Assembly: GCA_027019605.1 (NCBI GenBank)
Contig: JALUWJ010000127.1
Span: 1 to 58,325, forward strand
DNA from: Henriciella sp.
GTDB taxonomy: Bacteria; Pseudomonadota; Alphaproteobacteria; Caulobacterales; Hyphomonadaceae
DNA length: 58,325 nucleotides
Direction of reading: 5' to 3'
The notes below the pieces were generated by a model. It saw only the letters and a program-made list of their open reading frames with translations. It did not search any database and was not told the origin of the DNA. This document shows, piece by piece, positions 8,671 to 54,070 of this stretch (position 1 is its first letter; each line of letters starts with the position of its first letter). Both the position numbers and the translations under genes were made by a program.

Positions 8671-9949
8671 TCCGGAAACGGAGGCCAGCGAACAACAGGT
8701 TCGCCCCGCCGAATTTGCGCTCTTAATTGGCCTCTTGCTGATTTTCAGCGAAGGGATTTTGCCGCGGCTATTGTCCGGTGATGAATCGGCTGATGGATCG
8801 GCCTTGCTGCGTTATCTCTGGTTGCCGGTTTACGCGGTGACGTTTGCCGGGATCATTTGGAAAATTCGCGAGGTGGTGCAAACCTGTTTGAGACTGCCAT
8901 TCTTGATGGGCTTGCTGGCGGTTTGCGCGCTCTCATTCACTTGGTCAATTGATCCGGGGCTGACGCAAAGGCGGAGCCTCGCCATCATCATGACGACGGC
9001 TGCGGGCCTGTATGTCGGATCGCGCTACTCTTGGCGGACACTCTTACGCGCGATTGCGATCGCCTGGTTCATTGTCGCCGCGACGAGCTTCCTGACCGCA
9101 CTTGCCGTGCCTGCGTTTGGCCGCGATTTCGATGTTCATGGCGGCGCCTGGAAAGGGCTTTTCTACGAGAAAAACCAGCTCGGTGGTCACATGGCGCGGG
9201 CGGCTTTGTTTGGGGCCTTCCTACTCATCATGGATCGGCAATATCGCATGGTCTGGGCCGGGCTCACCGGGTTAAGCACACTGCTCGTTTTGCTGACCAC
9301 GTCCAAGACGGCTTTGCTGGGATTGCTGATCGCGATTGGCATTTTGGGCGCCGCAGCGGTCATGAAGCGCGGCATGGTGTTTGGTCTGGTAACGACTTGG
9401 TTTGCCGTCGTGGTCGGCGCGGTTGGCGTTGGTATTCTCGTTTTCGCGCCAGAGCTTGTTGTCGCAGTGCTCGGGCGAGACCTGACCCTGACCGGGCGGA
9501 CGGATATTTGGATGGCGCTCATGGATTTCATCTCTGAACGTCCACTCCTCGGATATGGCTATGGCGCGTTTTGGGATCCTGATAGCAATCCAGGCAACTG
9601 GGTGCGCGAGATCTTGGAATGGGAAGCGCCGACAGCCCATAATGGCTGGATTGAAGTCACCCTGGCGCTTGGCCTTGTCGGCCTAGCTTTCTTGGCGCTT
9701 GATTTTTTGATGACGATTTGGCGCGCGGCCTGCGCCTCGATCAATACATGGACCGGCGTGTTCGCTTTGGCCTTCTGCGCCCAATTCTTCCTGTTCAGCT
9801 TGTCAGAGAGTGCGTCGCTTCAACAAAACTCGATTGCTTGGCTAATATATGTCGCGCTTGCGGCGAAGCTTGCCCGCCGACCGAAAGGCCTGATCCTGAT
9901 TAAGCCGGCTCAACCGCGTCCACCGGCGCAGAGGATGGCTCAGGCTTAG
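8639..9949 (+). CDS. Wzy/O-antigen polymerase-like membrane protein (HfsC-like)
   Basis: A 436-residue polytopic protein with roughly ten to twelve hydrophobic helices, of the O-antigen ligase/polymerase (Wzy_C) family. A conserved periplasmic loop at about 165-185 reads FDVHGGAWKGLFYEKNQLG. A later loop reads GYGYGAFWDPD with EAPTAHNGWIEV; the AHN motif is typical of the family. It would polymerise lipid-linked repeat units in the periplasm. It overlaps the upstream P-loop gene (translational coupling likely). Its 3' end overlaps the convergent glycosyltransferase gene by 50 bases. Confidence 0.87.
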   Translation: MHGSLTVSAPSPETEASEQQVRPAEFALLIGLLLIFSEGILPRLLSGDESADGSALLRYLWLPVYAVTFAGIIWKIREVVQTCLRLPFLMGLLAVCALSFTWSIDPGLTQRRSLAIIMTTAAGLYVGSRYSWRTLLRAIAIAWFIVAATSFLTALAVPAFGRDFDVHGGAWKGLFYEKNQLGGHMARAALFGAFLLIMDRQYRMVWAGLTGLSTLLVLLTTSKTALLGLLIAIGILGAAAVMKRGMVFGLVTTWFAVVVGAVGVGILVFAPELVVAVLGRDLTLTGRTDIWMALMDFISERPLLGYGYGAFWDPDSNPGNWVREILEWEAPTAHNGWIEVTLALGLVGLAFLALDFLMTIWRAACASINTWTGVFALAFCAQFFLFSLSESASLQQNSIAWLIYVALAAKLARRPKGLILIKPAQPRPPAQRMAQA

Positions 9950-44110: not shown

Positions 44111-44803
44111 TTACTCCACCAATAGAGCCAGCAAGTCTCGGCGGCTACGATCGAACCGCTGCGCCGCCTGCTGGTCTTCGAGGGAAAGCCTCTGATCTTC
44201 CAAAGTCGCGATGTTGATGCGCCGCAAGGCTTTCATGCCACTTCTGAACACCTCATTTTCATAGGCAATGATCGGGAAATGATAGTCCATCAGTAGCTTT
44301 TCGAGAATGTCCTGACGCTTCAGATTGCTGTCTGGAATCGCTTCTCTCAAAACCCATAGATAGCGCTTGGTAAATTCCTCCACCGGGGACAGACCCTCAC
44401 CGCGAAGGTCGGCATCTGCGTGAACATAATCCACATTGTTTGTTGAGCTCAGCGCATGAAAAAGATTGCGCGCCCAGAAGTCTGCGATGGCGCGTTTGTG
44501 AGAGCGCAGGGCGAAAATACTCCCTGCCGGGAGGTCAATCGCATGTACCTGACCCAGCAGAGGATAAAGCACTTGCGCGGCATTTGGAGCGCGCTGTTCA
44601 AGCATCACTTGCGGCAAATCGGTTAGGCAGACTCGCGGCGCGGCTAAATCTGCGGTCTCGGATAGAGCGATCTCTACGCGGCTTGCGCTAAGCCTCAGAG
44701 ACAAACCCGATTTGTGCGAGGTCGCCTGGAACAGAAGCGAGTCAAACGCTTCGCAGTGCGGCCCGACCTCAAAAAATTGGGATGGCGTCAGCGTCATCGA
44801 CAT
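44111..44803 (-). CDS. Hypothetical protein in glycan cluster
   Basis: A 230-residue soluble protein I do not recognise. The N-terminal half is beta-rich (SGLSLRLSASRVEIALSETA). The middle part AGSIFALRSHKRAIADFWAR and the helical second half (FTKRYLWVLREAIPDSNLKR, QDILEKLLMDYHFPIIAYEN) show no motif. No membrane helix or signal peptide. Its start overlaps the stop of the bimodular glycosyltransferase by one base and it lies 7 bases before the exostosin-like gene, so it is translated with them. A role as assembly factor or novel transferase is possible but unsupported. Confidence 0.68.
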   Translation of the reverse strand: MSMTLTPSQFFEVGPHCEAFDSLLFQATSHKSGLSLRLSASRVEIALSETADLAAPRVCLTDLPQVMLEQRAPNAAQVLYPLLGQVHAIDLPAGSIFALRSHKRAIADFWARNLFHALSSTNNVDYVHADADLRGEGLSPVEEFTKRYLWVLREAIPDSNLKRQDILEKLLMDYHFPIIAYENEVFRSGMKALRRINIATLEDQRLSLEDQQAAQRFDRSRRDLLALLVE

Positions 44804-46644
44804 CAGGCACGCTCCAATTCTGAAGCTTGCAGCAGGCTGCGCCAGTCAGGCTTTTGTTCGGTGAGCCATGCCGCGCATTGCGCGATTTGGATATCGTTCA
44901 AGCCAAGCTCGACATTCTCGGCCATCAGGGTTCCGGCGCGCATGGTTGGTGTGTAGCGGTGATACCATTCAGAGCCCGAGCTGAGCTCGGTCGCAAAGGT
45001 TGGAATGCCTTTCGCCAACGCGTTGAACTTAAGCCAGACATCATCGGCGTACGGCGCATAGCGCAGGATTTCAGACGTGTTTGTAACCGACCCTCCTGAG
45101 AAAAACCCAGGCGGATAGAGCACGCCGCCAGCGCCGGTTGGCACAAGATTGAACGATGGGTCCTGCGTGCGGGCTTCTCTTTGCCAGTCGCGATACGGAC
45201 CGATCGCGCCATCCGCGCTGAGGCTCATCATATGACAGCGATTGCCAATGACGGTGTTCGGATGTTTGAGATGTCCGCTGAGCAGGCGTTCCATCGAATA
45301 GGGCTGATAAATCACGTCATCATCGACGATCACATAAGGCCGCTCTGGGTCGAAATGCTCAGTATGTGTGAACTTGTCGTACTGATGCCGCGTGGAGTCG
45401 ACAAAGTGCAGGACCAGTCCGGAGGCTTCAAACGCGCGCAATTGCGATGGCAGCCAGTTCGCGTTTGGGATCTCATCGCGGCCGAGAAACAGGTGAATGC
45501 TTTCAGGTTTCGCGCTTTGCTTGAGCAGCGACCTGATCACGAAGTGTAAGGTTGATATGCGCGCCGGAAATGAGGTCAGGCCGATTTGATAGGCCGGGTA
45601 AGTCTCGCGCGGCGCTGGCACCTCAATCCGCGATATGCGCGTATCTTCTTGGGTCGCGAAAGTCTGCGTTTCTTCTTTCAGTTCGCGTTTCGCGCGCCGT
45701 TGATCGCTGATCAGGTGGATGCGTTTGGCTTGTGCTTCCAGAAGCCGATTTTCAGCATCGCCCCAGTTTGCCTCCAGGGCGGCTTTGCAGGCCATGCGCA
45801 GCGCCCGCACATCTTCGGCGCGGAGGCTTGCAGATTGTTTCTGAAACAGCGTGTCCAAGACGGTATAGGCCAGATGCGAACGCACGCGGTCATTAGCCGT
45901 CCGCAACAGATCTAGAATATCGCGGACATGCGTACATTTTCGGCGAAACTCGATAATCGCGCTCGCAGGCTCGGTATCGAGATCAGCATACTCGCTGGTC
46001 AGCGTATCCAGGATGGAGGTTCGGGTCTTATCAAGATTGGCCGAAATGCCGGGTTCAGCCCCGCGAATGGCCCAAACGTCGGGCACGATTTGGATGTCCG
46101 CGCCATTCTCATAAAATCGTCCAAGTTGCAGCGTATCGCTATCGGTCTTGTGCCTACGCGCATCGAACCGGTTCTGACGCAGCAGGTCTGTGCGCACGAA
46201 CAGGGCCTGATGGCAAAAGCCAAGGCTGGCCATTTTGAACGCCTCGCCGGTTTGCCAGGACGCCCAGACATTGTCGCCGAGCTGGCCCCAGCCCATACAG
46301 CCATCATGCCCGCCGGCCTGCAGGAACGCCTTGGCTTTGGTGAGCACGTCATCAGCCGCGAAAACGTCACCAGAATTCATGAAGCAAAGATACTGACCGG
46401 TGGCGAGGTCCAGCGCCTTATTCATCGCGTCATAGACGCCGGAATCAGGCTCGTGGATGGATTGATCGACCTGGCCAGCCTGTTTCCAGAAATCGGTTAG
46501 CTCACGCGTGCCGTCTTCCGAGTTGCCGTCGACAATGACATATTCAAAGTCAGCCTCTCTTTGGCGAAACACGGACCGGGCCGTTTTGGTCAACGCCCAA
46601 GCGTGTTTGTATGACACGGTGACGATTGTAAAAAACGCGCTCAC
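44803..46644 (-). CDS. Bimodular glycosyltransferase (GT2 domain plus second GT-A-like domain)
   Basis: A 613-residue protein. Residues 1-220 are a GT2 domain (FFTIVTVSYKHAWALTKTAR, FEYVIVDGNSEDGTRELTDF, YLCFMNSGDVFAADDVL). A helical linker of about 120 residues follows, rich in Arg and Glu (LLEAQAKRIHLISDQRRAKR). Residues 350-613 form a second GT-A-like unit (QIGLTSFPARISTLHFVIRS, then RPYVIVDDDVIYQPYSMERL with its DDD metal site, and YADDVWLKFNALAKGI). The start is GTG at 46644, overlapping the stop of the sulfotransferase gene upstream. It could add two sugars or alternate linkages. Confidence 0.82.
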   Translation of the reverse strand: MSAFFTIVTVSYKHAWALTKTARSVFRQREADFEYVIVDGNSEDGTRELTDFWKQAGQVDQSIHEPDSGVYDAMNKALDLATGQYLCFMNSGDVFAADDVLTKAKAFLQAGGHDGCMGWGQLGDNVWASWQTGEAFKMASLGFCHQALFVRTDLLRQNRFDARRHKTDSDTLQLGRFYENGADIQIVPDVWAIRGAEPGISANLDKTRTSILDTLTSEYADLDTEPASAIIEFRRKCTHVRDILDLLRTANDRVRSHLAYTVLDTLFQKQSASLRAEDVRALRMACKAALEANWGDAENRLLEAQAKRIHLISDQRRAKRELKEETQTFATQEDTRISRIEVPAPRETYPAYQIGLTSFPARISTLHFVIRSLLKQSAKPESIHLFLGRDEIPNANWLPSQLRAFEASGLVLHFVDSTRHQYDKFTHTEHFDPERPYVIVDDDVIYQPYSMERLLSGHLKHPNTVIGNRCHMMSLSADGAIGPYRDWQREARTQDPSFNLVPTGAGGVLYPPGFFSGGSVTNTSEILRYAPYADDVWLKFNALAKGIPTFATELSSGSEWYHRYTPTMRAGTLMAENVELGLNDIQIAQCAAWLTEQKPDWRSLLQASELERA

Positions 46645-47609
46645 GATCCATTTTCTCCATGCACCTCACTGTCATAGTTCAATTTTTCGACAAGTTCGTG
46701 ATAGGAGCTGCAATTCAATTGCGCGAGAATAGCGTCATCAATCGGGGTCGGTGGTCTTGGCTCGATGGTTCCGCTGGTTCGGCCACTGTCTCCAGAGAAT
46801 TTGAAACTATCAAAGACGTCCTGGAAGTCCTCAAAAAAGCCAAGCTCTAAATGCTCACAAATGGTCTGCATGACCTGAATAGGGTCGGCCACAAAGTTCT
46901 CATATTGCACAACCGGGGTCCCCTCATAAGCCTCGAGGAAGGATAAATACCGCTTGCAATATTCATCAAATGTATTCGGCGTAAGGTGACCGTCCCATCC
47001 CATTTTCACCATCGATTGATAGCTGCGAACAGGGTGGCGAACCGTTACCAGGGACAGCAATGGGAGTTCGGCATCTTCCAGAATACGCTTTAAGGTGTAG
47101 CGATTGTCGCGACCCGCGCCATACAGGAAATGACCATGTGTGTGGTCTCGAAGGACCAGGGTTTTGCCCGATTGTTCCAATGTCTGGGCAACCTGCTGGA
47201 TGGAGTTGCCGAACAGCTTGGCCACGAGCTCGGGCTCAGGCGGGGACCCTGATTGGTGCATCAACGCGATCAGGTCGGTTGGGCTGAAACGATCCAAGTC
47301 GCCACGGAATGGGATCGCGCTCAATGGATCAACCTCGTTCAACACCACGGTGTTCGACATTGAGGCGATGCATTTGGCGAGCATCGTCCCGCCGCTGCAT
47401 GAAAAGTGATGGATGGTGCGAATTTGCAGCGGAGATGCAGGCGTGATTTCGCTGAGCTTGTGGATCGCATTTTGAACCGTTTGAGCTTGATCATCATCGG
47501 ATTTCAGCCGGCGTGCATTTTCGTGCGGCGCGATCCCGTGTTCCTCTGCGAGGCCCAAAATACCTTTTACCAGGTTGGAAAAGTCAGTCTTCTCGGCGGA
47601 CATGCTCAA
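46641..47609 (-). CDS. Sulfotransferase-like protein
   Basis: A 322-residue protein with a sulfotransferase fold signature. RTIHHFSCSGGTMLAKCIAS is the 5'-phosphosulfate-binding loop (S-x-G-G-T form). LSLVTVRHPVRSYQSMVKMG is the 3'-phosphate-binding R-x-P-x3-S motif. FLEAYEGTPVVQYENFVADP is the conserved third block. These three elements make it the most convincing sulfotransferase of the cluster. The first 70 residues are a helical extension. It lies 12 bases after the coiled-coil gene and 4 bases overlap the next glycosyltransferase. Confidence 0.8.
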   Translation of the reverse strand: MSMSAEKTDFSNLVKGILGLAEEHGIAPHENARRLKSDDDQAQTVQNAIHKLSEITPASPLQIRTIHHFSCSGGTMLAKCIASMSNTVVLNEVDPLSAIPFRGDLDRFSPTDLIALMHQSGSPPEPELVAKLFGNSIQQVAQTLEQSGKTLVLRDHTHGHFLYGAGRDNRYTLKRILEDAELPLLSLVTVRHPVRSYQSMVKMGWDGHLTPNTFDEYCKRYLSFLEAYEGTPVVQYENFVADPIQVMQTICEHLELGFFEDFQDVFDSFKFSGDSGRTSGTIEPRPPTPIDDAILAQLNCSSYHELVEKLNYDSEVHGENGS

Positions 47610-47621
47610 ATTTGATCCACA

Positions 47622-48569
47622 CTAATCGTCCGACTCGAGCGCGGTCTCAGCTCGCGATAGACGGGCCAAGATTTCAGCCACCAGTTTTTCGGTTTTTTTG
47701 TTTTTCACCAGCAGATCGGAATAACGTTGCTCAAGCGCGGCGAGATTGTTCTGCGCGATTTTTCGGCGTTTTTCGGCTTCGCTGTCTTCGCCGCCCTCAT
47801 AGGCGGCAAGCTGTTGCAGGCTACCTGCGCAGTTCCGAGCGAAGAGCAAGGTCTCTAGAGCCGGATGCCGCTCGGGGCTGCGGGCCATCAAAACGAACCC
47901 GTTCGCGCTTAAGAAGTCGATCGCCGCCTCTGAGGTGCTGAGATCGCTGGTGGTCGTCTCATTCCAGGTGCGCAGATAGATAACGTGGAGCTCAGTGAGG
48001 CAGTCAGCGGCGGCTTTTAGAACCTCGAGTCCATCGAGGCGATCAACAATCAACCAATTGAATGATGTGTTCGCAGCGTGGATGAAATCGAGCAATGCGA
48101 TCGAAGACACCTTGGTTTGCGATGTTTGCTCCAGATTTTTCCATAAGGGCTTCAAGGTCTCTGCGCTGACCAAGCCAGTTTCACGATCAATGCTGTTCTT
48201 GAAAACCGTAACGTCGCCGCCCATTGGGCTGATCGCTTGCTGGCTCGACTGCACGTCTAAGTCTTGGGTCTTGGGGGCGTCGATGACTTGTTGAAGGAAG
48301 CCTTCGTCCGGGTGGACAAGCGTGATTGAGGCGGCGCCCAGTTCAGAGATGCGCTGCAATTGCTGCGGCATCACGGCGCCGAGCGCCAAAGCAGACTTGG
48401 GCGGTAGAATCTTGCTCAATAGCAATTCGGCGTCTGTGATGCTCGGTTGGTCCAACTCAAACCCCAATCTTGTGGAGACACAGGAATACAGACATGGCGT
48501 GGATAAATCGACCCCGTATCGAAGTTCTAAACTCGTCGTCCGCCGCTTTAAGACTATGAAGTTCCACAT
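47622..48569 (-). CDS. Degenerate FkbM/Rossmann-like protein with C-terminal coiled coil
   Basis: A 315-residue protein with no clear family. Residues 50-245 recall an FkbM methyltransferase in order of elements (SALALGAVMPQQLQRISELG, then ITLVHPDEGFLQQVIDA, then IALLDFIHAANTSFNWLIVD and RLDGLEVLKAA). However, the glycine-rich SAM loop and the D-x-E-G motif are lost. Residues 262-312 are predicted coiled coil (EKRRKIAQNNLAALEQRYSD and onward). The ATG at 48569 is preferred over one at 48668, which would overlap the divergent promoter. It is the first of twelve minus-strand genes. Confidence 0.65.
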   Translation of the reverse strand: MWNFIVLKRRTTSLELRYGVDLSTPCLYSCVSTRLGFELDQPSITDAELLLSKILPPKSALALGAVMPQQLQRISELGAASITLVHPDEGFLQQVIDAPKTQDLDVQSSQQAISPMGGDVTVFKNSIDRETGLVSAETLKPLWKNLEQTSQTKVSSIALLDFIHAANTSFNWLIVDRLDGLEVLKAAADCLTELHVIYLRTWNETTTSDLSTSEAAIDFLSANGFVLMARSPERHPALETLLFARNCAGSLQQLAAYEGGEDSEAEKRRKIAQNNLAALEQRYSDLLVKNKKTEKLVAEILARLSRAETALESDD

Positions 48570-48682
48570 TCTTTCACTATTCACTATTCTTACGCTTCGG
48601 AAGTACACATAAACAGTGGCGCAGACCCAGATAATCTGATTTGGAAGGCGCCGGGCGACGCGAATCATCTCGTGGGAGAGAA

Positions 48683-50212
48683 ATGATGACCATTTTGGTG
48701 ACCTGCGGCATCCATGACGAATGGTGCACGTTTGCGCAAGGTCGACTTGAGAGCATGGGGTTTAACGCGCCGGTGGCGTCGTCCCGCTCACACATGTCCG
48801 CGTCGGAATTAACCGAAAAAATGCTCTCCGTCAGCCGGCCCGGCGGTAAAACCTCATACAAATCTCCCGCGCCAAAACTCGGTCAGGCCTGGCATATTGC
48901 AGCAGCCGATTTGATGATCGCCAATGCTGATCAAGAATCCTGGGGGTGGGCCCACCCTGACAATTTACGGTTTCTCGAGTTTTGGAAAGCATTCGAGCCA
49001 AATTGCCGATTTGCGCTGATCTACACGTCTCCGGCGGAATATGTGGCGCGCGAGATTTCGGTCAGCGATACGGAAGAAGACGGCCTCGAAAACATCCTCG
49101 AGCGCTGGCGTGATTATCATGAAGAGATGCTCCGGTTCTATCACGCGAACAGCGACGTTAGCATGCTGATAAACCTGCACAATTTCGAGGATACGGCGCA
49201 ACCGATCGCAACCTTGTTGTCGGATCGATTGAACGTGAATGCGACGCGGCTGAATCAAGCCGAATACTTGTTTCAGTCGGCCCTGATGGATGTCATCGCT
49301 GAGCGCCTGGTCGACCAAGAGCTTGAGGCCGCGAATTTGTTCTCAGAGCTCGAAAACTCCGCAGATCTGCCAATGTCACTCTCATCATACTCTCGGCGGG
49401 GGCTGGCGGGTAAAGCGCACCGGGAATTGGATGAAAACCTGGCTGGTCTGGATCAAGCTCAAGACAATTTGCTGAACGCGCAGCGCGAAATCGATCAGCT
49501 GACTGAGTCGCTGAAGCGTACAGAAGATTTGCTCGAGACGGAGCGACGCGAGAAAGAAGTGTTGGAACTTGCCGCGTCCGAGGCGCATGTGCCGCAATTG
49601 CTGGAAAAGCAGCTCGAACAGGTCCGTGAGGAGCTGCATCTCTATTTCAACAAGTATAATGAGCTTAAGGCGCAGGTCGCGGCGAACCCAGCCGCTTTGT
49701 CGAAAGCTCACGCTGCATCTGCGGCCGCGCCTCTGGCACCACTCATCCAAATTGACCTGAAATCCTACATTGATGGCGAGGGATGGCATCATGCGGAAGA
49801 TCATGGCCGCTGGGCCGGGGCATCTTTGTCGAGCACGCTGCGCCTGCCAGATTTGGACGCTGGTAAATACAAAGTCAGCGTGAGAATCGTGGATGCGATG
49901 GCGCTTGATATTCTGCGCGGCATGTCGCTGACGCTAAACGGGGCGCCGCTGAACGCTCATTTGAAGATTTTGAGCGATATGGGCGGGCGACTGGCACCGC
50001 TGCGCCGGGCGAAGGCGCATGCCAGCAATATTGAAAAACCATTTCCCGCAACGCTGACGGCGACGATCGAGCCGGCCCAAATTCGCATTCGCGATGACAA
50101 CATTCTCGGAATCGTGAGTCCGCGTGCGGTGCATCCGCCATCTGTGCACGGGCACGATGACCGGCTACTATCATGCTGTATCGAGAGTGTGAGCTTTCAT
50201 CGGGTAGCGTAA
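48683..50212 (+). CDS. Coiled-coil protein with degenerate sulfotransferase-like head and beta-rich tail
   Basis: A 509-residue protein. Residues 1-225 follow the layout of sulfotransferase-like proteins, but the P-loop position reads VTCGIHDEWCTFAQGRLESM with no G-x-x-R-S-G-T; RFALIYTSPAEYVAREI takes the place of the 3'-phosphate motif. Residues 245-335 form a coiled coil (NLLNAQREIDQLTESLKRTE and onward). After an alanine-rich hinge, residues 355-509 are a beta-rich domain (IDGEGWHHAEDHGRWAGASL, KYKVSVRIVDA, LTLNGAPLNAHLKI) that looks like a sugar-binding sandwich. The stop is immediately followed by the ABC permease start. The ATG at 48683 has GGGAGAG upstream. Confidence 0.72.
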   Translation: MMTILVTCGIHDEWCTFAQGRLESMGFNAPVASSRSHMSASELTEKMLSVSRPGGKTSYKSPAPKLGQAWHIAAADLMIANADQESWGWAHPDNLRFLEFWKAFEPNCRFALIYTSPAEYVAREISVSDTEEDGLENILERWRDYHEEMLRFYHANSDVSMLINLHNFEDTAQPIATLLSDRLNVNATRLNQAEYLFQSALMDVIAERLVDQELEAANLFSELENSADLPMSLSSYSRRGLAGKAHRELDENLAGLDQAQDNLLNAQREIDQLTESLKRTEDLLETERREKEVLELAASEAHVPQLLEKQLEQVREELHLYFNKYNELKAQVAANPAALSKAHAASAAAPLAPLIQIDLKSYIDGEGWHHAEDHGRWAGASLSSTLRLPDLDAGKYKVSVRIVDAMALDILRGMSLTLNGAPLNAHLKILSDMGGRLAPLRRAKAHASNIEKPFPATLTATIEPAQIRIRDDNILGIVSPRAVHPPSVHGHDDRLLSCCIESVSFHRVA

Positions 50213-51064
50213 ATGTTAGATTCCCAAAATTACCGGAAAGCCCAAGTGCAGCAGCAATCGCTGAGCGGCTTTAGCTTGCAGCCGAAAGCAGCCTTCGACG
50301 ATATCGTCCAAGGGGCGAAGCTTTGGCGTGTTTGGCTGTCTCTGTCTTGGCAGGAGTTTATCTCGACCTATCGCCGTTCGATTATCGGGGTGTTTTGGGT
50401 CATGCTGTCTTTCGCAGCCTTTGTATTCATCAAGCTGACAATCTTCTCATCGCTGCTCGGTGCAGATGATGTTCGCTATTATGATGCCTATCTGGTGATC
50501 GGCTTTTTCATGTGGGTGTATTCCCAGCAAGTCATCATGACGGCGCCTGACACATTTGTCAGTTCGAGCGGGTGGATACGAAGCGAGGCGCTGCCGCTCT
50601 CAACCTATATCTACAAAATGGTGATGCGGGAGATTTACAATCTTCTCTTCACGTTTGTGGTCGTCATTATTGCGCTAATTTACCTGCAATATCCGGTTAA
50701 AATACAAGCCCTCTATGCGGTCCCGGCGATCCTGTTTCTGTTGCTGAATGCGTTCGCAATAAAACTGCTACTGGGGATCATTGGCGCACGAGTTCGCGAC
50801 GTCACACACTTGGTCAAAGCGATTATGCTGCCGATGATGTTTTTGACGCCGATCTTCTGGATGCCTTCGCAAATGCCAAACCTCATGAAGGTCTTGTGGT
50901 GGAATCCGCTATTCCACGCGATTGAGATTTTTCGAGCGCCGATTCTGGACGGGGAATTCCCAACCGAAAGTTGGATCTTTATGGGCGTGGTTTTCGCTAT
51001 CGTCTCAGTTTCAGGCTTTCTGCTGTTTTCGCGGCTCCGCCAGCGAATTGTATTTTGGTTTTAG
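50213..51064 (+). CDS. wzm: ABC-2 type polysaccharide export permease (Wzm-like)
   Basis: A 283-residue inner-membrane permease with about six membrane helices, of the O-antigen/teichoic/capsule exporter type. The cytoplasmic N-terminus carries the amphipathic gate motif WLSLSWQEFISTYRRSIIGV. Later blocks include LVIGFFMWVYSQQVI and the C-terminal signature MLPMMFLTPIFWMPSQMP with WWNPLFHAIEIFRAPIL. It pairs with the ATPase 3 bases downstream to move lipid-linked glycan across the inner membrane. Its ATG abuts the TAA of the coiled-coil gene, so translation is coupled. Confidence 0.93.
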   Translation: MLDSQNYRKAQVQQQSLSGFSLQPKAAFDDIVQGAKLWRVWLSLSWQEFISTYRRSIIGVFWVMLSFAAFVFIKLTIFSSLLGADDVRYYDAYLVIGFFMWVYSQQVIMTAPDTFVSSSGWIRSEALPLSTYIYKMVMREIYNLLFTFVVVIIALIYLQYPVKIQALYAVPAILFLLLNAFAIKLLLGIIGARVRDVTHLVKAIMLPMMFLTPIFWMPSQMPNLMKVLWWNPLFHAIEIFRAPILDGEFPTESWIFMGVVFAIVSVSGFLLFSRLRQRIVFWF

Positions 51065-51067
51065 ACC

Positions 51068-51814
51068 ATGGCCCAGATCGACGCGTTTAATCTCTGTCTC
51101 CATTATCCGTTAACAGGCGGCGCGGATCGCAATATAAATGCAGACCGCGAGCCAGACTCTATCGTCACCGTGGGGCGCAAGAAGTATATTCTCGCCCTTC
51201 GAGATGTGACTTTCTCCATCCAGCGCGGCCAGAATGTCGGTCTGGTCGGCCGCAATGGGTCTGGCAAGTCGACGCTTCTCCGCGTGTTGGGCGGGATCTA
51301 TACACCGACCAGTGGTCAAGTTGTCTCCTCCGGTAAAATCTCATCTCTCTATGGCATGAATCTCGGCATTCAACCGGACGCAACCGGGCGTGAAAACATT
51401 GTTTTTCGCGGGATTATCAAAGGCTGGTCTCGAGAAGAACTCAACGAGCGAATTCCTGAAATTATCGCGTTCAGTGAATTGGGTGACTATATCGATTTGC
51501 CGCTTCGAACCTATTCAGATGGTATGCGGATGAGGCTGCTTTTCGCCATCGCGACCTGCTTTGCGCCAGAGATCCTTTTGCTCGACGAATGGATCGGGGC
51601 AGGGGATGCGAATTTCCAAAGAAAAGCCGGGCAGCGGATGAACGATCTGGTCGATGAGGCTGGTATCACCGTCGTCGCCAGTCACAATCGCAACTTGATC
51701 CAAAGCGTTTGTGAGCAAGGTATCTGGCTCGATAAAGGCGTCATGCGCGCCTATGGTCCAATCGCCGACGTCTATAAGGAAATGGACGCGCACTATGCCA
51801 AGGTTCGCGCCTAA
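51068..51814 (+). CDS. wzt: ABC polysaccharide exporter ATPase (Wzt-like, no C-terminal sugar-binding domain)
   Basis: A 248-residue ATPase of the Wzt/KpsT/TagH type. Walker A is VGLVGRNGSGKSTLLRVLGG, and the Wzt-type element SSLYGMNLGIQPDATGREN is present. The signature region is TYSDGMRMRLLFAIATCF and Walker B is EILLLDEWIGAGDANFQRK. The protein stops soon after the H-loop (VASHNRNLI), so it lacks the beta-sandwich tail that Wzt of E. coli O8/O9a uses to recognise the chain end. The previous gene ends in a beta-rich domain that might serve instead (inference). Confidence 0.93.
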   Translation: MAQIDAFNLCLHYPLTGGADRNINADREPDSIVTVGRKKYILALRDVTFSIQRGQNVGLVGRNGSGKSTLLRVLGGIYTPTSGQVVSSGKISSLYGMNLGIQPDATGRENIVFRGIIKGWSREELNERIPEIIAFSELGDYIDLPLRTYSDGMRMRLLFAIATCFAPEILLLDEWIGAGDANFQRKAGQRMNDLVDEAGITVVASHNRNLIQSVCEQGIWLDKGVMRAYGPIADVYKEMDAHYAKVRA

Positions 51815-51820
51815 ATTACA

Positions 51821-53983
51821 CTAAATCAGCGGTGCGAAAGCCGTCACAGCGTGATAGAGCATGCTCGCCGGAACGGCTTTGGCAATTGGCGCGCCAGACG
51901 CATCCACCTCATCAATCCAGCCACCTGCTGGGCCCTGATCAAGATAGACCTCAAAGATTTGCTCCAGCAGCGCTCCTGCTTTTGCGCGTGAAGCCACGCC
52001 CGGATGCAGGAGATAGGCTCGGAACATTTCCAATTGATGCCACAAGCGGCTGTTCGCGTTTGTGATCTCGCCATTTGCGCGGCGCGCATTCATGGCAAGG
52101 CCGGTTTCAGCGTTTAAACCATTGGCGTCGGCATAGCGAATGAGGCGGCGGCGCCAGCTCAATGAGTCATGCCCCGACACGCTTTCATGCATCGAAAGAA
52201 GGGTTGCCCACTCATAGTGGTGGCCGGGCTCAAACACGGTCTCGACTGGCGTCTCAGCGGTCGCCCAATCCTGCTGGAAAAACTCTGACATGACGTCGGT
52301 GGCGGGATCGAAGAAGAATTTCTCAAACAAGGTCACGCATTCGCCGGCGCGATCCAAGGCGGCCAAATCACCTGTTGCATCATGGTAGGCGAGCATCGCT
52401 TCCAACATGTGCATATGTGGGTTTGAACGGCGGGGAAGGGTGGCGGGTAGCGCTTCCAGCCAGCCGCCAAGACTTTGATCTTTCAATTGGGTGTCGACAA
52501 ATGCCATCGCGTCTTGGGCAATTTTTAGTCCGAGCGCGCTCCCAGTTGCCTTGTAGGCTGCAGATCCTGCCAGAATGATGAAAGCATGATCGTAGAGATC
52601 GCGGCGTTGGTCTGAGGGGGTGCCGTCTGCTGCGATGATATGGACCCAACCGCCCTCCGGGTGACGCAGGCGCGTGTCGAGATAGTCGAGGCCGCGTTCA
52701 ATCAGCGATTTAGCGGTATCCGTCTCAGGCCAGCCAAGCTCAATCGCTTGCGCGAAACTATAGACCTGACGGGCTTGCACGCGCACCCGGCGGTCTGCGC
52801 CGCGGTCTGGATTGCCATCAAGATCCAACTGTTCAACGAAACCGCCTTGGCCATCATCCCACGCTTTTTCTGACCAGGTTTCAAAAGCTTGCCAAAGCCA
52901 TTCCTTTGCCCGGCTTTTTAATGTTTCAGAAAATCCGAGTTGCGCGCGCTTGTTTTGAACTTCAGCGCCAAGCTTTTTAACCGCCGCATCATCGCTGGTC
53001 GGGGTGATCATGACCTCGTTCTCGGTTGCGATGATGACGAGGTTCGAGACCCCGTTGACCGCAATCGCTGGGCCTTCGGAGCGGACGTATAGGCCTTCTG
53101 AATCAGTGGCGAAGACAGGGCCTGAGCTATAATTGGCCGTCTCTTCTTCGGTCAGAAGATCATGCAATGCGCGGTATCCGCCGACATCGCTCCAGCCCAT
53201 TTGAACCGGCACGGTTTGGACATTCTCCGCTTTTTCCATCACGGCATAATCGATTGAGATGCTTGGTGTATTGGAAAAGGCTTCTGGATCCAGATGTGCC
53301 GTTTGGTTTTCGAATGGGCGCATCGCATTCTCGGTTCCTGTCAGAATGTCAGGAGCGAATTGCCGTAGAGCGTCAGACATAATGCCCGCCTTGAACAGGA
53401 AAATCCCGGCATTCCAATAATAGGTGCCTGCTTTCAGATAGCTTTCAGCGGTTGCGAGATCTGGTTTTTCGACGAACTCTTCGACATTTTTGACAACCGC
53501 ATCGCCGCGCTCAGCTTTGATATAGCCGTAGCCGGTTGCGGGATGTGAAGGCTGCACACCGAAGGTGACGATTGCGCCGGCTTCAGCGGCTTCTGCAGCG
53601 AGCGCGATTGCTTGCTGAAAGGCGGGGACATCGCGAATGTCGTGATCGGCAGGCAGAATGAGCACCAGATCATCAGGATCATTGGCCAGACAGGCGGCAG
53701 CAACCGCGGGTGCGGAATTGCGACCCATTGGTTCAAGAATTTTCCGAGACGCGGGCAAAGTCGAAGCGAGCAGGGAAGCGTGCCGTTTTGAACCAATCAC
53801 CAGTGGCTGTGTGAACTCCAGATTCGGTCGCAGACTCGAGGAAAACCGGAACGCGGTTTCTTCAATCATGCTGCGATGCGTGGTCAGAGGTAGGAATTGC
53901 TTCGGTGTCGCCGGCGTAGAGAGCGGCCACAAACGGGTTCCAGCGCCGCCGCACAGAATGACCGGATGGATTTTATAGTTCAT
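51821..53983 (-). CDS. Mannose-1-phosphate guanylyltransferase fused to AGE-family epimerase/isomerase
   Basis: A 720-residue fusion. Residues 1-350 are a ManC-type guanylyltransferase (VILCGGAGTRLWPLSTPATP, KQFLPL, NVEEFVEKPDLATAESYL, YYWNAGIFLFKAGIM), making GDP-mannose. Residues 370-720 are an N-acylglucosamine 2-epimerase/mannose isomerase-type (alpha/alpha)6 barrel (GFVEQLDLDGNP, QARQVYSFAQAIELGW, FEPGHHYEWATLLSMH, NSRLWHQLEMFRAYLLHPG). In many bacteria the partner of ManC is a cupin phosphomannose isomerase; here an AGE-type domain probably takes that role. The ATG at 53983 is preferred over 54034. Confidence 0.9.
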   Translation of the reverse strand: MNYKIHPVILCGGAGTRLWPLSTPATPKQFLPLTTHRSMIEETAFRFSSSLRPNLEFTQPLVIGSKRHASLLASTLPASRKILEPMGRNSAPAVAAACLANDPDDLVLILPADHDIRDVPAFQQAIALAAEAAEAGAIVTFGVQPSHPATGYGYIKAERGDAVVKNVEEFVEKPDLATAESYLKAGTYYWNAGIFLFKAGIMSDALRQFAPDILTGTENAMRPFENQTAHLDPEAFSNTPSISIDYAVMEKAENVQTVPVQMGWSDVGGYRALHDLLTEEETANYSSGPVFATDSEGLYVRSEGPAIAVNGVSNLVIIATENEVMITPTSDDAAVKKLGAEVQNKRAQLGFSETLKSRAKEWLWQAFETWSEKAWDDGQGGFVEQLDLDGNPDRGADRRVRVQARQVYSFAQAIELGWPETDTAKSLIERGLDYLDTRLRHPEGGWVHIIAADGTPSDQRRDLYDHAFIILAGSAAYKATGSALGLKIAQDAMAFVDTQLKDQSLGGWLEALPATLPRRSNPHMHMLEAMLAYHDATGDLAALDRAGECVTLFEKFFFDPATDVMSEFFQQDWATAETPVETVFEPGHHYEWATLLSMHESVSGHDSLSWRRRLIRYADANGLNAETGLAMNARRANGEITNANSRLWHQLEMFRAYLLHPGVASRAKAGALLEQIFEVYLDQGPAGGWIDEVDASGAPIAKAVPASMLYHAVTAFAPLI

Positions 53984-54070
53984 TGTGATCCCAGCAAATA
54001 TCTTGGTTCTGGCCGTCCCGACCGTATAGACCAAAAAAGTGCAGAATTCGTGCCTGTTTTTGGTGCCTGA

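Follow-up and report, generated by a model that had tools for sequence, protein, structure and literature searches.

The locus and its genes

We analyzed a stretch of 58,325 nucleotides from Henriciella sp. (contig JALUWJ010000127.1; hereafter the window), a contig from a genome that is 84% complete, and describe two of its genes, A and B, which adjoin the wzm and wzt genes of an ATP-binding cassette (ABC) exporter. By sequence, gene B is related to KfiB of the Escherichia coli K5 capsule. The gene order in 46641-51814 is sulfotransferase, gene A (minus strand), gene B (plus strand), wzm and wzt, and the closest cassettes among named genomes were found in Henriciella metagenome genomes. Published statements cited here come from excerpts of the papers named. 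The features are as follows.

46641..47609, minus strand: sulfotransferase of 322 amino acids (aa), third gene of the local cassette (Sulfotransfer_3, E 3.9e-6)
47622..48668, minus strand: gene A, methyltransferase-fold head (predicted) followed by a C-terminal coiled coil; start probably TTG 48467 (or ATG 48569)
48468..48682, no strand: intergenic region between A and B if A starts at 48467; divergent promoters expected
48683..50212, plus strand: gene B, KfiB homologue, 509 aa
48683..49366, plus strand: B head, predicted sulfotransferase fold without the P-loop for 3'-phosphoadenosine 5'-phosphosulfate (PAPS); WGWA...FLEFW...W142 signature
49403..49720, plus strand: coiled-coil region of B, residues 241-346 (predicted model)
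49598..49657, plus strand: conserved coil motif of B; window LLEKQLEQVREELHLYFNKY, common family form LLLLQLHQVQEELEHYFLKYQ, KfiB QLHIVQEQLEHYFIENQ
49736..50209, plus strand: B tail, predicted beta-sandwich resembling carbohydrate-binding modules (CBMs); W-x3-E-x2-GRW motif
50213..51064, plus strand: wzm, ABC exporter permease (galactan Wzm model E 3.7e-44, below its cut-off)
51068..51814, plus strand: wzt, 248 aa, ATPase only, without a C-terminal carbohydrate-binding domain (galactan Wzt model E 2.3e-71, below its cut-off)

Both genes and wzm-wzt lie where a first-pass annotation of this DNA had placed them. For B, the ATG at 48683, which follows a Shine-Dalgarno-like GGGAGAG, is a better fit than the TTG at 48641. 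Three starts are candidates for A (ATG 48668, ATG 48569 and TTG 48467); because relatives begin near 48467 and residues 1-32 of the A model, counted from 48569, are of low confidence, TTG 48467 is favored. The first-pass annotation had both genes diverge from one promoter, which was not borne out, as a sigma-70-type scan recognized no site between them. It had also described B and wzm as translationally coupled: the B stop codon does abut the wzm start codon, and it is from these codons that we infer the coupling itself. An orthologue of the sulfotransferase gene at 46641..47609 adjoins A in five relatives (alignment A7, six sequences). A glycosyltransferase gene occupies 44803-46644, genes for 3-deoxy-D-manno-oct-2-ulosonic acid (Kdo) are close to the locus, and positions 51821-54034 encode a mannose-1-phosphate guanylyltransferase fused to a mannose isomerase/epimerase-like domain.

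Gene B, its relative KfiB and its partner A

KfiB (E. coli Nissle 1917, L120:28918-30606) was the only match to a B-head profile among the open reading frames (ORFs) of four E. coli stretches (E 2.2e-47). Alignment of the B head with KfiB by hhalign scored 99.93% (E 7.8e-36), blastp of window B against KfiB gave 24.5% over 216 aa, and the coils of both proteins end in a QLHxVQEELEHYF-type motif (window form QLEQVREELHLYF). On this sequence evidence B is a homologue of KfiB, and "undescribed", as the first-pass annotation had it, is wrong for B. A kfiB deletion mutant makes no K5 capsule, and membrane placement of KfiC depends on KfiB (PMC4366286); the same 2015 paper nevertheless assigns "no clearly defined role" to this protein, on which a well-known capsule depends. 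A 2026 review reports contacts of KfiB with KpsM and KpsT, citing Hu 2024, and states that KfiB stabilizes the KfiA-KfiC complex, with more uniform chain lengths (PMC12834895). The earlier suggestion of a scaffold gains from this homology to a part of a membrane-bound capsule complex (PMC4366286, PMC12834895).

KfiB is called a putative sulfotransferase in a 2026 E. coli capsule paper, which also mentions coiled-coil methyltransferases (PMC13171606), and a DUF8374 domain-containing protein in some E. coli records; the Pfam copy used here gave no match to KfiB. Of 5426 E. coli genomes, 307 contained DNA resembling kfiB, and in 253 of these the match covered at least 80% of the gene. The full B-A pair was found beside an ABC exporter in two E. 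coli capsule loci (plasmid pAL.H8 and strain PSJ-23), where it is annotated as sulfotransferase family or hypothetical; the B DNA of pAL.H8 matched 77/5426 E. coli genomes, 76 of them over a short stretch only (one of the 76 was checked). Residues 477-565 of the E. coli B protein at L123:13992-15755, within its tail, resemble the N-terminus of a Campylobacter O-methyl phosphoramidate transferase family; the model of that family scores this tail at E 1.5e-8 and KfiB at 2.5e-4, far below the model cut-off.

An AlphaFold model of B (mean predicted local distance difference test score, pLDDT, 85.3; 31-row alignment) comprises an alpha/beta head (residues ~1-228), long helices within 241-346 and a beta-rich tail (354-508), in agreement with the three-part architecture read earlier from the sequence. 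The folds of A and B given here are such predictions. Foldseek placed the modeled head among sulfotransferases (TPST2, 3ap3, E 2.8e-6). No credible family was found for A or B in Pfam and NCBIfam, which gave weak, mostly coil matches only, and a sequence search of the PDB gave weak matches, mostly to coiled coils.

B heads were aligned against three P-loop sulfotransferases that the B profile itself had found (G920, G766 and G884). The RSGT of the PAPS P-loop is missing in 29/29 aligned B heads, where the intact-enzyme relatives have RSGTS; the K of WGWK is missing in all 26 heads with a residue at that site (three have gaps), and none of the 29 has the R of the R-x-P loop. The loss of the P-loop that the first-pass annotation had seen in window B therefore extends to all aligned members; structure comparison gives a predicted sulfotransferase fold, and the alignment shows that its catalytic loop is not intact. 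As P-loop, K and R are absent across the aligned members, the loss is old and common rather than a decay in this genome. G920 and G766 were rejected as B proteins, being sulfotransferases with a P-loop. The window's own genome also carries two sulfotransferases with an intact GMHRSGTS (contig C75, L020:7739-8440 and 9002-9703), which match the B-head profile at E 9.5e-14 and 2.8e-6; neither A nor Wzt was found by profile in the 16 kb fetched around them. A similar B-head match occurs at L021 in G016 (E 9.4e-11).

Protein A was modeled at pLDDT 85.6 (26 rows), with a class I methyltransferase fold (1wy7, E 1.2e-6) and a helix of 67 residues. The first-pass annotation had called its head FkbM-like, which fits the predicted fold and a resemblance by eye, but neither FkbM model (PF05050, TIGR01444) matched window A, and FkbM is not among the Pfam families listed for 26 A members. 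Across these 26, ten Pfam families were matched at E 0.001, each by a single member; by these searches A is a family without a common Pfam match. The annotation had also described the S-adenosylmethionine (SAM) motif of A as lost. This holds for four Henriciella A proteins, from which the GxG of motif I is gone, and not for the other 25/29 A heads, which keep it. The A proteins of the two E. coli loci (L123:15756-17597 and L124:12448-14190) have a further methyltransferase-like domain C-terminal to the coil, with a GSGxS motif; it matched Methyltransf_24 at E 0.0024, below cut-off, in one and had no match in the other. This extra domain might be a working capping enzyme.

A proposal that A and B are a working methyltransferase and sulfotransferase with divergent active sites would draw on the predicted folds, the retained GxG of most A heads, the second domain of the E. 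coli A proteins and the selection acting on both genes. Between the window and its closest relative, nonsynonymous divergence (dN) and synonymous divergence (dS) are 0.093 and 2.0 for whole B and 0.28 and 3.2 for whole A (B head 0.076/2.57, B tail 0.054/1.21, A head 0.32/3.5); the dN values are much smaller than those of dS, which points to strong purifying selection on both, with dS saturated and the dN/dS ratios correspondingly rough. Against the proposal stand the missing RSGT, K and R of the aligned B heads and the lost GxG of the four Henriciella A heads. In addition, when KfiB was assayed for transition transferase activity, Kdo acceptors were not extended with the donors supplied (PMC11666461; PAPS is not mentioned in the excerpt). 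We consider the proposal quite improbable; in this organism A and B are both probably without enzyme activity.

Conservation of the pair was followed in a one-genome-per-species scan, which gave 37 loci. In all, 47 loci were checked: the window, these 37, L018, a phylum sample (L078, L079, L081, L082, L083) and E. coli (L120, L123, L124). L080 and L084 were excluded because their proteins are intact sulfotransferases, L019 and L030 because they have the tail but no B head, and further entries because they repeat a genome under another identifier. A B-head ORF was present in 44/47 loci, with none by profile in L041, L079 and L083. For A, 38 of the 44 were countable (at least 1.2 kb of downstream DNA, or divergent type), six at contig ends being left uncounted. 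A lies within 2.5 kb of B in 33/38 countable loci, from proteobacteria to Chlorobiaceae; the five without A are L039, L050, L059, L066 and K5. L061 and L063 carry an identical B, and the pairing is 32/37 if they are counted once; many of these loci had also served to train the profiles, and L031-L033 and L042 repeat genomes already known. The gene pair is thus conserved and not an oddity of the window. Divergent orientation of A and B is confined to the five loci of the window's family; in the other loci both genes lie on one strand.

Among 105 genomes of the window's family, B-like matches occurred in six and A-like matches in five, in the same genomes save one (G024). G024 (L019:8940-10619) has the same tail on another head, in B's place before wzm-wzt; one of six A1 members matches MptE-like at 5e-5, and by its sequence this member is the G024 protein, which also has a strongly hydrophobic stretch. 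In the phylum sample of 398 genomes there were eight matches at 1e-8, the window's own genome included, and B and A are close together in G500, G1056, G884 and G939, with a glycosyltransferase-like gene between them in two; the other three matches are a coil protein of G1006 and the sulfotransferases of G920 and G766. The pair is rare (5/398, own genome included) but widespread; in chosen groups, B was found in 1/12 genomes (the query genome itself) and 1/200.

Several features of individual members were recorded alongside. A coiled-coil protein of 872 aa in G1006 (L083:9651-12269) combines the coil motif of B, at the N-terminal end, with the end motif of A, at the C-terminal end; it was rejected as an A-B fusion, since it has both coil motifs and neither head. 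An AEAQIxLIKDxLLREPGL-type motif ends 17/29 A proteins (e.g. L053:11419-13305) and is absent from the window's family. In several clusters A is followed by a gene with an LLExxxxxWQFG motif (L038:12751-14169, L040:13767-15422, L053:13308-13928 and L081:12732-13775), which has an FkbM domain in L038 and weak matches to tetratricopeptide repeats, below cut-off, in L038 and L040.

The tail-less exporter, the tail of B and the coils

The window Wzt has 248 aa and ends after its ATPase, as had been reported earlier, and its closest relatives in the PDB have 260-263 aa. The absence of a tail is not remarkable in itself: in the family, Wzt-like matches number 105 and come from 94/105 genomes, 52 of them counted as short (open frame up to 360 codons; none of these exceeds 358 codons, and the other 53 reach at least 398), and tail-less Wzt is a described class (PMC11231755). 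The idea that a tail-less Wzt is unusual was discarded on these counts. All Wzt frames are short in the five B genomes and in the genome with the tail variant, against the 52/105 background (hypergeometric p 0.027 and 0.013, kinship uncorrected). KpsC/KpsS (PF05159) were found in 0/8 genomes with pair or tail (own genome 84% complete), and the control search did ring in E. coli and B. subtilis. A group 2 capsule was therefore ruled out for the Henriciella locus, which is of the Wzm-Wzt kind despite the kdo genes close by.

Beyond the window, too, the exporters near B are tail-less. An exporter ATPase was present in 19/44 fetched B loci, each of 214-288 aa and none with a tail; the 288-aa frame probably has an overlong start. 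In the remaining 25/44 no such ATPase was seen in the DNA fetched; for some of them that DNA is cut short, while for L042 and others it is not. These 25 loci could speak for a general envelope function of the pair, found beside wzm-wzt by cluster habit only. We regard this as very improbable, given that wzm-wzt directly follows B in five genomes, that the listed neighborhoods of the pair are largely glycan gene clusters, and that KfiB is a capsule protein. In Robiginitomaculum (L029:7264-17189 in G115, the same as L042) a B-A-sulfotransferase triplet adjoins what by eye resembles a type II Cas9-cas1-cas2 operon.

The B tail gave Foldseek matches to CBM15/CBM35-type modules from the predicted model. 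By profile, a CBM-like tail is present in 20/44 B proteins and missing in 24/44, KfiB included; by eye, KfiB and its E. coli kin have another type and others have further types, and from these sequences B tails appear exchangeable. It is conceivable that the tail works in trans as the carbohydrate-binding domain that Wzt lacks. The CBM-like predicted fold is in keeping with such a role, as is the position of the tail beside tail-less Wzt in the window, G016, G019, G021, G055, G024 (on the other head) and G191. An exporter ATPase is also commoner with the tail (13/20 B loci) than without it (6/24; Fisher p 0.014, kinship and duplicates uncorrected). Yet 24/44 B proteins have no such tail, and L035, L042, L046 and L058 have the tail with no exporter in the fetched stretch. 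Moreover, the tail domain was found in at least 7/299 genomes of the order (at most 12 candidates scored per genome), whereas about half of the Wzt-like matches of the family are tail-less, so tail-less exporters in general need no such tail. We find a role in trans rather doubtful. In G191 the tail occurs as a free-standing gene of about 150 aa (L030:9555-10121) after a glycosyltransferase gene, divergent from tail-less wzm-wzt.

The coil motif directly before the B tail is nearly invariant (e.g. L318 in 38/38), which suggests a fixed docking site, and it is duplicated or triplicated in some members. Coil lengths range over 60-440 residues in B and 69-531 in A. The first-pass annotation had drawn an analogy with WbdD, whose coil serves as a ruler, and A-B might likewise be a molecular ruler of the WbdD/WbbB kind in which the exported glycan takes its length from that of the coil. 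The wide range of lengths and the repeated motifs would fit, as would a correlation between the coil lengths of partners (rho 0.68; 27/29 pairs, two without the motif dropped) that is not seen for their head lengths (rho -0.25, p 0.22). The raw correlation weakens, however, after correction for kinship: independent contrasts on the B-head tree gave r 0.43 (log) and 0.35 (linear), with sign-flip p of 0.09 and 0.12, and A coil length shows a trend with the length of the B tail as well (rho 0.36, p 0.06). In known rulers the distal end of the coil bears an active terminator (PMC11231755), whereas both heads look inactive here, and a simple hydropathy/moment scan of window A and B gave no convincing membrane or amphipathic helix. 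A ruler is therefore unlikely, and the WbdD analogy is not supported, there being no terminator enzyme and a coil-length correlation that is clear only before kinship is considered.

A probable scaffold at the exporter and its known counterparts

We favor, with moderate confidence, the interpretation that B acts as a non-catalytic scaffold of the KfiB type, linking assembly of the glycan to its export by a tail-less ABC exporter, and that A is its usual partner. A and B would probably assemble through their coils into a complex at the cytoplasmic face, which would probably recruit the glycosyltransferases and sulfotransferases encoded in the cluster to the tail-less Wzm-Wzt, such that the chain would be built, decorated and exported by one assembly. 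The CBM-like tail of B would probably hold the growing glycan near the exporter, which elsewhere is the job of the Wzt tail. The analysis shows that B is homologous to KfiB, that the genes are conserved as a pair, that catalytic motifs are lost and that tail-less exporters are frequently nearby, with folds that are predictions; we infer complex formation, enzyme recruitment, glycan binding and any effect on chain length. The tail-less O2a system of Klebsiella pneumoniae couples extension to export with chain length set by stoichiometry (PMC11231755), and a scaffold without a ruler is in keeping with known systems of this kind.

A number of observations weigh against this interpretation. KfiB has neither A alongside it in the K5 locus nor a CBM-like tail, the tail profile giving no match. 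The review that assigns KfiB a stabilizing part states elsewhere that it is not directly involved in polymerization, and heparosan has been made in E. coli BL21 with KfiA and KfiC and no KfiB (PMC12834895), so KfiB is not strictly needed there for polymerization. O2a-type coupling appears to proceed without an A- or B-like protein, none being described in the excerpt (PMC11231755). The Foldseek matches of the B tail to CBMs are weak (E ~1e-3), and its sequence profile found no CBM in the PDB. More than half of the B loci showed no exporter ATPase, and Robiginitomaculum L042 has A, B and sulfotransferase together with no wzm-wzt nearby. Finally, the retained GxG and the extra domain of the E. 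coli A proteins count here as well; given that domain, some A proteins may be enzymes.

A bolder version of the scaffold would be a widespread two-part pseudoenzyme machine for tail-less ABC glycan exporters, in which a matched A-B coil would by its length space polymerase and exporter, and the exchangeable tail of B, a CBM in the window, would read the glycan as a substitute for the tail that Wzt lacks. A 2025 review leaves open whether a still-unidentified factor controls chain length in ABC exporter-dependent capsules (PMC12220298); if this version, which we think rather unlikely, were true, the machine would be the length or quality control factor sought there. Among the matches listed from the open-licence PMC literature there was no paper on A or on the A-B pair, and the excerpt of a paper on a sulfated Vibrio capsule (PMC11641403) does not mention "coiled". 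Apart from that version, the data place KfiB as a branch within a broad family whose members have a conserved head signature and a highly conserved coil motif, differ in their exchangeable tails and regularly come with a partner protein. The family offers defined sites for experiments, non-pathogenic organisms in which to do them, and a starting point for asking how an exporter without a tail engages its glycan.

Among known systems, WbdD, WbbB and K. pneumoniae O4 ORF7 and O7 ORF6 resemble A-B by description only, in that a coil and a methyltransferase- or transferase-like head occur in an ABC exporter-dependent glycan locus; the O7 ORF6 model also has a CBM-like domain, as in B (PMC11231755). 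The WbdD-type heads are active terminators, unlike the window heads with their lost catalytic motifs, and in the terminated systems Wzt carries a CBM (PMC11231755), which the window Wzt lacks. In E. coli group 3 capsules, putative methyltransferases with a coiled coil (PMC13171606) share with A a methyltransferase head and a long coil beside an ABC exporter. The group 3 protein at L122:26482-29211 differs from A in that its head is Methyltransf_24 (E 6e-25) and is unmatched by the A-head profile; it had been a candidate relative of A (A profile E 9e-8) and was rejected on that ground. The Wzm-Wzt systems of K. pneumoniae O1/O2a and mycobacterial galactan have, like the window, a Wzt without a CBM (PMC11231755), and galactan Wzm/Wzt are the best family matches of the window Wzm/Wzt; unlike the window, the description in that excerpt mentions no KfiB-like or A-like protein.

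The closest counterpart is KfiB, which shares with window B a degenerate sulfotransferase-like head, a coiled coil with the QLHxVQExLEHYF motif near its end, and a locus with a tail-less ABC exporter. The KfiB tail has two GYRLG/SYQLG...P stretches by eye, and window B has a GRW beta domain instead; unlike the K5 locus, window B adjoins a Wzm-Wzt closest to the galactan type in a genome in which KpsC/S (PF05159) were not found. With a partner A and a CBM-like tail, both missing from KfiB and K5, B is a new and differently built member of the KfiB kind.

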